A model generated the notes under the pieces. The model saw only the letters and a list, made by a program, of their open reading frames with translations. It did no database searches and was not told the origin of the DNA. A program made the position numbers and the translations under genes. Below, piece after piece: positions 43,965 through 55,518 of a stretch of 64,000 nucleotides of DNA (position 1 is the stretch's first letter; each line of letters opens with the position of its first letter). Source of the stretch: Rugalucina vietnamica (Eukaryota > Mollusca > Bivalvia > Lucinida > Lucinidae); NCBI GenBank assembly GCA_964017185.1, contig OZ024884.1:14113548-14177547 (forward strand), given 5' to 3'.

Positions 43965-44280
43965 GTATAGTATTTTTGATTGACTATTCTTTCTTTCTTT
44001 TACCATTTCTTTCACTTGAATTTGTACTTTCTGTTAGACTAAAATTAATGGCGGCCCATTCTCCATATGACCATAGATATTGAGTGGGACCTATAAGGCT
44101 ATAAACCAACCAACTCACTTGAGTCGAGTTTCATATGATAAAACCAGGCAGTGGTAAAAAACTGCCAGGGAACAACTTACCATTCTGATTTGTTGTAAGT
44201 TGTTCCCACACAGGTTCCGTCAGCCATAATTATATTGATTTCATCTGCATCAATTGTTCTCGGTCACAAGTTTGTCTCTG
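43965..44280 (+). other. Intron start with SINE-tail fragment and small hairpin
   Basis: Contains CCATATGACCATAGATATTG at about 44062, matching the SINE tail seen at 3990. Also a hairpin GGGAACAACTTA..TAAGTTGTTCCC at 44168-44207, a motif repeated at about 54170-54220. Confidence 0.55.
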
Positions 44281-45208
44281 AATAACCATTGTGTTATGCA
44301 GGTTCGTAGTAGTAACCATTGAGTTATGCAGGTTCCTAGTAATAACTGTTGTGTGATGCAGGTTCTTAGTAATAACTGTTGTGTTATGCAGGTTCTTAGT
44401 AATAACCATTGTGTTATGCAGGTTCTTTGTAATAACCATTGTGTGATGCAGGTTCTTAGTAATAACTGTTGTGTGATGCAGGTTCTTAGTAATAACCATT
44501 GTGTTATGCAGGCTCTTAGTAATACCGTTGTGTGATGCAGGTTCTTAGTAATAACCATTGTGTTATGCAGGTTCTTAGTAATAACTATTGTGTGATGCAG
44601 GTTCTTAGTAATAACTGTTGTGTGATGCAGGTTCTTAATAATAACCATTGTGTTATGCAGGTTCTTAGTAATAACCGTCGTGTGATGCAGGTTCTTAGTA
44701 ATAACTGTTGTGTTAAGCAGGTTCTTAGTAATAACCATTGTGTGATGCAGGTTCTTAGTAATAACCGTTGTGTGATGCAGGTTCTTAGTAATAACCGTTG
44801 TGTGATGCAGGTTCTTAGTAATAACCCTTGTGTTAAGCAGGTTCCCAGTAATAATCATTGTGTTAAGCAGGTTCCGTTGTGTTATGCAGGTTCCTAGTAA
44901 TAATCATTGTGTTATGCAGGTTCTTAGTAACAATCGTTGTGTTATGCAGGTTCTTAGTAATAACAGTTGTGTTATGCAGGTTTTTAGTAACAATTGTTGT
45001 GTTATGCAGGTTTTTAGTAATAACAGTTGTGTTATGCAGGTTTTTAGTAACAATTGTTGTGTTATGCAGGTTCTTAGTAATAACAGTTGTGTTATGCAGG
45101 TTTTTATAAGTAAAAACCATCCGGCATTGTGTTATGCAGGGTTTTATTTTAGAACTGCTGTGATATGCAAGTTCTTAGTAAGAACCATTGTGTATTGCAG
45201 GTTCATCA
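44281..45208 (+). repeat. 30-bp minisatellite, about 31 copies, inside an intron
   Basis: The unit reads AATAACCGTTGTGTGATGCA followed by GGTTCTTAGT. Because 30 is a multiple of three, long frames are open on both strands: plus decapeptide MQVLSNNxCV, minus VITKNLHHTT. From about 44925 to 45090 two variants alternate (AATAACAGTT and AACAATTGTT), giving a 60-bp higher-order unit. One unit near 44873 is truncated. The array lies between the exons at 43509 and 47844 on the same strand. Confidence 0.95.
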
Positions 45209-45652
45209 GCTGATGGCCTTCCCTTTGATGACCATTTCCATCGGAAATCTACAGCAAATGATTACTGAGATATTGATGTAGATATTGCTATATCAATGTC
45301 ATTATTTTTCATATAAATGTATATTAAGGCCTGAAATGAACGTCTCTTCTTCATTAATTATAAATGAGCAGTGTCCAGTGAAAACACAACTTAGGGTTGT
45401 AACCAGATCTGACACAAGCCCCCAGCTGCTCAGCCACAGAGAATGGCAAGAGGAATCATCAAATTTTGTGAAGTGATTGTAATTATAAGGAATTAAGATT
45501 CTGATGTATGTGAAAGCATTTACATGGACTTGCCATAAAATCAGGTTCTTGAGAATCAATGCTTCTTGGAAGTGTTTGTCTATCAGATTGCATTAGCTAA
45601 TTAGCAAACTGTTGATGACAATTTCTATCTAGAGTAGAATGATATTGTGGAC
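45209..45652. other. No gene; old MITE-1 fragment possible
   Basis: At about 45395-45470 AACCAGATCTGACACAAGCC and CACAGAGAATGGCAAGAGG resemble the non-hairpin half of MITE-1, strongly diverged. Confidence 0.4.
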
Positions 45653-54085: not shown

Positions 54086-54413
54086 AGCCACACTGGGCAA
54101 CTGGAGACAAACAGCAAATGCCGACTGAGAACAACTTAAAATACAAATGAAATCGAGGATATAAAGACCTAAGTGGGAACAACTATTAAGGTTAAGAATG
54201 ATCTGTATTGAGTTGTTCCCAGATAGGTATTATTACTCCATATAATATCAAGTTGTTAGGTATGACTGCATTATTTAGTCCATGTTGGTTGTTCTGATTT
54301 ACGTTGTTTGTTTCAGGAGAAAGGGTGTGAACAACTGCAAGTTTCAGAAGAAGCTTGATATTTTCATATTTTGAAACAAGACTTGTAGCACCGGCGAAAG
54401 CTACTTTGCTGCT

Positions 54414-54458
<45 letters not shown>

Positions 54459-54578
54459 CACATTCTGTGAGATAGAAAAACATGAACACATTTTCGTAAC
54501 ATATTGAAAATTTATTGTCACTGATTTTCATGAATTGCGAAAAAAAGAAGAAAGGTTGTACATGGTCAATGACTGGTG
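54086..54578. other. Spacer with GGGAACAACT hairpin and poly(T)
   Basis: GGGAACAACT at 54175 and AGTTGTTCCC at 54211 form a hairpin like the one at 44168. A T tract of about 37 lies at 54417-54455. Confidence 0.55.
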
Positions 54579-54726
54579 TGTAACAGGCGAAGAAAAATTC
54601 TTTCTTCCCTGACGGGGATCGAACCAGGTTCTCCCGCGTGCTAAGCGAACACTCTACCACATCGCTGTAAAAGCCGGCTTGTACCGCAAGGCAGTACAAG
54701 TGTGCTATATACCTATACCCTGTGAC
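54579..54726 (-). repeat. TRIM 3' LTR
   Basis: 148 bp, with TG/CA ends. Contains the same tRNA-like segment as the other LTR. The two LTRs differ at only a few positions that I can see (for example GACGG versus AACGG), so the insertion appears recent. Confidence 0.88.
54606..54676 (-). ncRNA. tRNA-Ala(AGC)-like segment inside the 3' LTR
   Basis: The minus strand reads GTGGTAGAGTGTTCGCTTAG, then CACGCGGGAGAACC and a perfect B box GGTTCGATCCC. The order and spacing follow tRNA-Ala(AGC). The acceptor stem does not pair well, so it is promoter-like rather than a functional tRNA. Confidence 0.65.
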
Positions 54727-54844
54727 ATTCTCCCCCACCAAATTGGGCTTCGTCCCGGAAGTCCCTGGCCATCCAGTTTATCGTAGAAACAAACTCGGGG
54801 AATTACTGCACGGGTCATAGGATTAATTCACGTTGGGCGCCAAA

Positions 54845-54993
54845 TGTAACAGGCGAAGAAAAATTCTTTCTTCCCTAACGGGGATCGAACCAGGTTCTCC
54901 CGCGTGCTAAGCGAACACTCTACCACGTCGCTGTAAAAGCCGGCTTGTACCGCAAGGCAGTACAAGTGTGCTATATACCTATATCCTGTGACA
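54845..54993 (-). repeat. TRIM 5' LTR with tRNA-Ala-like segment
   Basis: 149 bp. tRNA-like part at about 54873-54943, B box GGTTCGATCCC in the complement near 54883. Confidence 0.88.
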
Positions 54994-55279
54994 GGTGCAT
55001 TAGAATCACTTAAATGCAAGCATGAGATTTATGTTAAACAAAGTAGATTTCTCTAAAATTATCACGCAATACACTGCTTTATTTCTGTAGTGGACTAGTC
55101 CGACGTTCTCTTCCGAGTTTGGCAGGGAAAAGCTACATAATTGATAGTGTTTTAGGGAATTGACATCGCGGGTCTATAAATAGTCTGCGACAAGCTAAGT
55201 CAATTATTTGGTGCTCAGAGTTTCTGTTTTTAGCCGTAGATTGGAACAAGTTAATAAGACCTAATATTGGGAGATATTT

Positions 55280-55518
55280 GAGCCGCCTTTTTAGAAAATC
55301 GGGTTTTGGGCTTTATATCAGATCCAATATACTACAAAATGGCCTCTAAACTCGCAGAAAATAAGATAAATTTGTATTTTTCACAGGTAGAGGGATTTCA
55401 CTGTCCATGCAGTGAAAAACAAGTTACAGGTTGATCAGCTGTGCAGTTCTTGTGCAGCTGATCTGTTGCTTTGTTTTCGCATATGAAAAAAAAGAAGTCT
55501 TTTCACAGAATGGTTCTT
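55280..55518 (-). mobile_element. Old MITE-1 copy
   Basis: The left end GAGCCGCC is clear. The hairpin CTGTGCAGTTCTTGTGCAGC is still recognisable; other parts are diverged. Confidence 0.65.

Follow-up and report, generated by a model that had tools for sequence, protein, structure and literature searches.

The element at positions 54,579 to 54,993 of the window, a stretch of 64,000 nucleotides from the bivalve Rugalucina vietnamica, is very probably a young Helenus-type TRIM, a non-coding LTR retrotransposon of 415 bp that is mobilised in trans, probably by a Ty3/Gypsy element. In the cycle proposed for this element, transcription would begin in the 5' LTR, with Pol III as the probable polymerase and the tRNA-like boxes as its promoter, and the RNA would end at the TTTTT of the 3' LTR. 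The minus strand would then be primed by host tRNA-Lys(CTT) and the plus strand by the purine tract, with the DNA completed and inserted by a Gypsy reverse transcriptase and integrase.

The element and its genomic family

The element is complete and lies on the minus strand in the order LTR, PBS, internal part, purine tract, LTR (Table 1). Its LTRs are 98% identical direct repeats with TG..CA termini on both copies; their length, given as 148 bp in an earlier reading of the sequence alone, measures 149 bp. The 5' LTR is followed by TTTGGCGCCCAACGTG, which holds the 14-nt PBS, and the 117-bp internal part terminates in the purine tract GGTGGGGGAGAA, directly before the 3' LTR. The letters GGTG stand at each flank as a 4-bp TSD. 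The PBS, purine tract and 4-bp duplication described in the sequence-only reading are all present. At E ≤ 0.001, neither the LTR nor the internal part matched anything else in the 64-kb window. Elsewhere in the window, positions 44250-45213 hold a long open tandem repeat on both strands (CVMQVLSNN and similar on the plus strand), minisatellite-like and expanded.

Table 1. Positions in the window of the features assigned to the TRIM, with strand and basis of assignment
Feature	Positions	Strand	Basis
5' LTR, 149 bp, TG..CA	54845..54993	-	direct repeat; also in relatives
3' LTR, 149 bp, TG..CA	54579..54727	-	direct repeat; 3 mismatches to 5' LTR
PBS, 14 nt, tRNA-Lys	54829..54842	-	sequence; tRNA identity via ARAGORN on L057
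Polypurine tract GGTGGGGGAGAA	54728..54739	-	sequence; surrounding internal part 80-97% identical among other aligned copies
tRNA-Ala(AGC)-like stretch, 5' LTR (LTR 55-125)	54869..54939	-	ARAGORN, lowered threshold
tRNA-Ala(AGC)-like stretch, 3' LTR (LTR 55-125)	54603..54673	-	LTR coordinates as in 5' LTR; direct repeat
Box B GGTTCGATCCC, 5' LTR	54881..54891	-	sequence; such a box in 5/5000 shuffles
Weak box A CAGCGACGTGG, 5' LTR	54923..54933	-	sequence; first position T in 15/66 LTRs
TTTTT, possible Pol III terminator, 5' LTR (LTR 131-135)	54859..54863	-	invariant in 66/66 covering LTR stretches
TATATA, 5' LTR (LTR 17-22), upstream of tRNA-like stretch	54972..54977	-	sequence
TSD GGTG, left	54575..54578	+ (letters)	sequence
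TSD GGTG, right	54994..54997	+ (letters)	sequence

The genome searched comprises 1.09 Gb in 47 contigs. When the 415-bp TRIM was used as the query, at least 41 of 44 matches, a lower bound with 40 of 659 candidates scored, were 95-100% identical to it over 393 bp or more of its 415 bp, far beyond what chance would give; the 41 include the window copy, and two of them overlap in a tandem array. The exact junction of LTR end and PBS occurs 56 times in the genome, versus 0 for a reversed control pattern. Thirty-eight loci were read, consisting of 30 of the 56 junction sites and eight matches from the genome search, with overlaps between L007 and L011, L027 and L028, and L029 and L030. These loci contain 23 complete LTR-internal-LTR units, each with a PBS and a purine tract in the internal part, and 21 of the units lie outside tandem arrays. 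Tandem arrays of the form LTR-internal-LTR-internal-LTR, in which an LTR is shared, were read at three places (L009, L027/L028, and L029/L030).

An exact 4-bp TSD abuts the outer LTR ends in 15 of the 21 complete non-tandem copies, while with the right flanks permuted the exact matches averaged 0.9 and never exceeded 7 of 21. Six copies are without an exact TSD: the flanks of L018, L024, and L036 agree at three of the four positions, those of L008 and L016 do not agree (the L008 copy sits inside a tandem array of another repeat), and L003 may be flanked by TATA at either end, provided that a mutation has changed its last base. Divergence within LTR pairs is low, with a median of 1 mismatch in 149 and no mismatches in seven of the 21 copies, one of which (L003) has a 1-base gap. 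The 500-bp flanks of the 21 copies have in common nothing except other repeats, the longest such match between two copies being 360 bp at 92% and in non-corresponding places. Given the TSDs, the near-identical LTR pairs, the unrelated flanks, and the complete units, the window TRIM is a young copy of a family with recent LTR-type insertion. Both LTR-type integration and recent activity had been proposed from the window copy, and both are supported by the copies read.

tRNA-Lys junctions and a candidate Gypsy partner

In ordinary copies the PBS pairs with 14 nt at the 3' end of tRNA-Lys. Among the 36 regular-expression junctions in non-duplicate loci, the 14-nt PBS is followed by AATT in 30, CATT in one, and GGGC or GGGT, as in tRNA-Lys, in five; this last count is no frequency, since L057, L058, and L059 were fetched for their longer match and L017 and L033 came from the 30 junction loci. 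Genome-wide, the longer tRNA-Lys form has 11 sites at up to one mismatch. Five of these were read (L017, L033, L057, L058, and L059), and the others are at C3:47612695, C3:69643074, C5:1326354, C9:4988659, C12:17546664, and C15:32805446. The tRNA-Lys sequence extends for 17 nt at L017, 18 nt at L058, and 17-18 nt at L033; at L057 and L059 it covers at least the 47 nt that were compared.

The context of the tRNA-Lys sequence differs among the five sites. In L057 (G000:C15:5552900-5554600), ARAGORN at its default setting reports a 76-base tRNA-Lys(CTT) with CCA at 797-872, in antisense; it lies two bases from the LTR end, a spacing shared with the TRIM. An internal deletion has left 61 bp of the LTR of L057, and a Gag-like ORF lies beyond the tRNA copy. 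L059 (G000:C11:34444700-34446200) has TRIM LTR 1-149 at 98%, followed by the greater part of a tRNA-Lys(CTT) complement, a damaged 81-base tRNA according to ARAGORN, and then by other sequence. At positions 1430-1730 of L033 (G000:C8 near 54149230), within a rearranged cluster, an LTR end (LTR 96-149) and 17-18 nt of tRNA-Lys complement are followed by an inverted TRIM LTR; the 18th base, a C, could be part of the inverted LTR, so that 17-18 nt is the safe reading. In L058 (G000:C11:47019700-47021100), a stretch like a tRNA-Lys PBS stands on either side of a TRIM LTR, and ahead of the left-hand stretch is the LTR-like end of a different sequence. In L017, the last 22 bp of the LTR and 17 nt of PBS are joined to a Gypsy 3' pol part. 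The extra letters in L017 and L058 may belong to the PBS of another element, and the evidence on the TRIM family is therefore limited to L033, L057, and L059.

According to a review (PMC13191261), plus-strand strong-stop synthesis halts after an 18-nt tRNA sequence at m1A58, while copying of an unmodified tRNA continues as far as its 5' end. Junctions of both kinds, one with 17-18 nt and the other with most or all of the tRNA, fit these two products, and in their sequence the odd junctions resemble plus-strand strong-stop DNA that was integrated and so preserves the identity of the primer. A more far-reaching reading, which is possible and rather doubtful, is that the genome holds a fossil record of TRIM reverse-transcription intermediates, some stopped at m1A58 after 17-18 nt and others carrying the greater part or the whole of a mature tRNA-Lys(CTT) with CCA, and that intermolecular second-strand transfer linked certain of them to Gypsy templates (L057 to the Gag-like ORF, L058 to the sequence behind another PBS). 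If this is true, then TRIM and Gypsy RNA would have been in one particle, the partner would be named by its own hybrid copies, and the question of which element mobilises TRIMp3 elements would have a direct answer. Among the titles listed in a survey of the literature, none reports copied tRNA at LTR junctions in a genome, which is weak evidence of absence. The odd junctions suggest a simple read-out of primer identity, and perhaps of the autonomous partner, from integrated intermediates.

The same junctions could have formed without reverse transcription, if TRIM copies had recombined with tRNA-Lys genes or with PBS sequences belonging to unrelated Gypsy elements. This explanation falls short of an even chance, and it was given added weight because of the ambiguous 18th base in L033, where the final C can be assigned to the inverted LTR partner. 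The arrangement of L058, with its LTR between two PBS-like stretches and a different LTR-like end to the left, is also what recombination might leave, as are the internally cut LTR of L057 with a Gag-like ORF behind it and the 22 bp of LTR and 17 nt of PBS on Gypsy 3' pol in L017, an LTR that may be of another family. Eukaryotic tRNA genes are not known to encode the CCA, and its presence in L057 argues against a tRNA gene as the source. The L033 junction also speaks for reverse transcription, as it ends at 17-18 nt against an inverted LTR and not in a tRNA gene.

Several sequences point towards a Gypsy partner. The ORF behind the tRNA copy in L057 matches PNMA (E 2.1e-6), which is derived from Ty3/Gypsy Gag. 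The 3' pol part of L017 is common to at least 11 other loci (L043-L053) at 88-92%; the L017 ORF itself has no Pfam match, and in one stretch of the L043-L053 family the domains RT RNase H, integrase zinc-binding, and integrase core are arranged as in Gypsy. At the 3' end of this family, with both strands considered, ten of the 11 loci read GGGGAAGAATGTCATAGGGCG and L049 reads GGAGAAGAATGTCATAGGGCGA. The ends themselves are GGGGAAGAATGTCATAGGG in ten and a near form in one, differing at 2 of 19 positions from the GGGGGAGAATGTCACAGGG of the TRIM; in its purine tract and LTR start the Gypsy family is thus almost the same as the TRIM. On these sequences a Gypsy is a candidate partner and no more than that, since the TRIM LTR was not found in three neighbouring pieces of the L043-L053 family (L054, L055, and L056, where the internal part gave chance-level words) and no PBS was found for that family. 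The search for an autonomous Gypsy partner called for in the sequence-only reading has thus yielded a Gag-like ORF and a pol part, but no complete autonomous element with the TRIM LTR among the loci examined. The partner would be recognisable if several sites were to show an LTR ending in CTGTTACA, an 18-nt tRNA-Lys PBS, and Gypsy genes.

One further candidate, an ORF of L036/L039, was rejected as the partner: it has a SCAN domain but lies about 7 kb off, and any further matches to the TRIM LTR in that stretch are short words. This open frame, at 7659-9899 of L039, has 747 codons, reaches the end of the stretch read, and contains the SCAN domain at E 1e-11, possibly as part of a retroelement Gag. 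At the same locus (G000:C9:53433053-53434000), the outer LTR of a TRIM copy is adjoined by an unlike sequence that has a purine tract of its own, in a hybrid-like arrangement.

tRNA-like sequence and putative transcription of the LTR

A tRNA-Ala(AGC) is reported by ARAGORN at LTR 55-125, in the same sense as the TRIM, when the threshold is set at 50-85%, and is absent at 90-100%. At the default setting no tRNA was reported in the whole window, and an Rfam search of positions 54301-55300 at E ≤ 5 matched no family, neither tRNA nor 5S. The 85% level was reached by 43 of 5000 dinucleotide shuffles of the LTR, and a box B of the form GGTTCRANNCC on the given strand occurred in five of 5000 LTR shuffles. 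Box B (GGTTCGATCCC) is intact in the LTR. The consensus for box A is TRGYNNARNNG, and the box A of the LTR (CAGCGACGTGG) is weak, being off this consensus at 2 of 7 constrained positions, with T as its first letter in 15 of 66 LTRs. From the lowered-threshold ARAGORN result, the null results at default and in Rfam, and the shuffle controls, the stretch is best described as a worn tRNA-derived sequence, above chance yet no tRNA gene. The claim that each LTR contains the A/B-box portion of a tRNA-Ala(AGC)-like sequence is therefore borne out on the minus strand for the stretch as a whole and for box B, but box A is weak. The central 55 bp of the stretch are 78-80% identical to a nearly intact tRNA-Thr(GGT)-like sequence in L021. 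That sequence lies in a 115-bp TG..CA LTR-like unit (1264-1378 of L021; G000:C5 near 33057774), possibly a second Helenus family.

The TTTTT of the LTR lies a few bases past the tRNA-like stretch and before the PBS, and none of four poly(A) hexamers sought was found in the LTR. Together with the upstream TATATA and the invariance of the TTTTT, the lack of these hexamers is consistent with a Pol III unit in which U3, R, and U5 measure about 54, 80, and 14 bp. We infer Pol III activity of the LTR from these features; the TTTTT of the 5' LTR would be expected to end a Pol III transcript ahead of the PBS if there is no read-through. Across copies, letters other than the majority one account for 0.017 of box B and 0.032 of box A (0.012 minus its first base). 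The corresponding shares are 0.030 for the remainder of the tRNA-like stretch and 0.019 for LTR 1-54, with 0 in the TTTTT and 0.011 in LTR 126-149, although variation is biased at that end because 30 loci were picked by the exact last LTR bases and the PBS, a pattern just outside of which the TTTTT lies. The copies are too alike for selection on the boxes to be demonstrated.

If the TRIM is instead transcribed by Pol II from the TATATA, then the tRNA-like stretch would be the remnant, without function, of a former SINE insertion into the LTR. This is a tentative alternative and on balance the less likely one. It would account for the degenerate box A and the broken cloverleaf, for boxes that are not clearly less variable than LTR 1-54, and for a T5 that would block a Pol III transcript ahead of the PBS. 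However, both boxes are retained in the published Helenus families (PMC10886601). The intact box B, the absence of all four poly(A) hexamers from an LTR that has kept its T5 throughout, and the similar tRNA-Thr-like sequence in another LTR-like unit of the same genome also count in favour of Pol III.

A tRNA SINE consists of a tRNA head and a LINE-like tail, without LTRs, a PBS, or an integrase-type TSD, and the window element differs from it by its LTRs, PBS, and 4-bp TSDs. That the family is an ordinary tRNA-derived SINE duplicated in tandem, the case against which the sequence-only reading had asked for a test and to which the three arrays might seem to point, is refuted and has next to no probability left, given the internal part with conserved PBS and purine tract between the LTRs of all 23 complete units, the 4-bp TSDs at the outer LTR ends of 15 of 21 non-tandem copies, the TG..CA ends, and the tandem arrays known also in the Helenus family LTR-11_DR (PMC10886601).

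Comparison with known systems

The plant element Cassandra had been named as the closest established parallel; this is not supported, as tRNA-bearing animal equivalents are already published as Helenus (PMC10886601). Cassandra is similar in having the Pol III promoter of a small-RNA gene in the LTR of a non-coding LTR retrotransposon (PMC10886601) and in forming tandem arrays, as the title of PMC7215508 states. It differs in carrying 5S rRNA and not tRNA sequence, in occurring in plants, and in that its transcription has been shown (PMC10886601), whereas for the window TRIM it is predicted. Ajax, a nemertean TRIM with part of 5S rRNA, shares the TRIMp3 plan but is 5S-derived and has a 5-bp TSD and a tRNA-Leu primer (PMC10886601). 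The biv-TRIM elements of bivalves (Satovic 2019) are animal TRIMs of similar plan and low abundance; in contrast to the window family, no canonical PBS was identifiable in them, and a tRNA-like LTR is not among the features described in the passages of PMC6934838 consulted.

Helenus (TRIMp3; Kojima 2024) comprises TRIMs with tRNA-derived sequence in both LTRs, found in a screen at less than 1000 bp; in animals these have 4-bp TSDs, and tRNA-Lys is among the primers in wasps, vertebrates, and bivalves (PMC10886601). Box A (TRGCY and YGG) and box B (GGTTC) are conserved, Pol III promoter activity is expected but has not been validated, and Gypsy partners have been inferred by similarity of the PBS (PMC10886601). 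The window family resembles Helenus in its TRIM plan, in the tRNA-like stretch with a GGTTC box B in both LTRs, and in its PBS and purine tract. Further points of likeness are the 4-bp TSD of animal members, a primer from the tRNA-Lys 3' end in some families, tandem arrays in one family, and several families per genome. A Gypsy mover is likely for Helenus and is the candidate here, where a Gag-like ORF and a Gypsy pol part lie behind tRNA-Lys junctions. Compared with the main text of PMC10886601, the window family is a further member of Helenus, and it adds one more genome confirming that tRNA-bearing TRIMs are real and recent LTR retrotransposons, not SINE tandems. It differs from the published families in its resemblance to tRNA-Ala(AGC), in a box A (CAGCG..TGG) that fits YGG but departs from TRGCY, and in having odd copies that carry copied tRNA-Lys; these integrated tRNA-Lys junctions are the part worth following.
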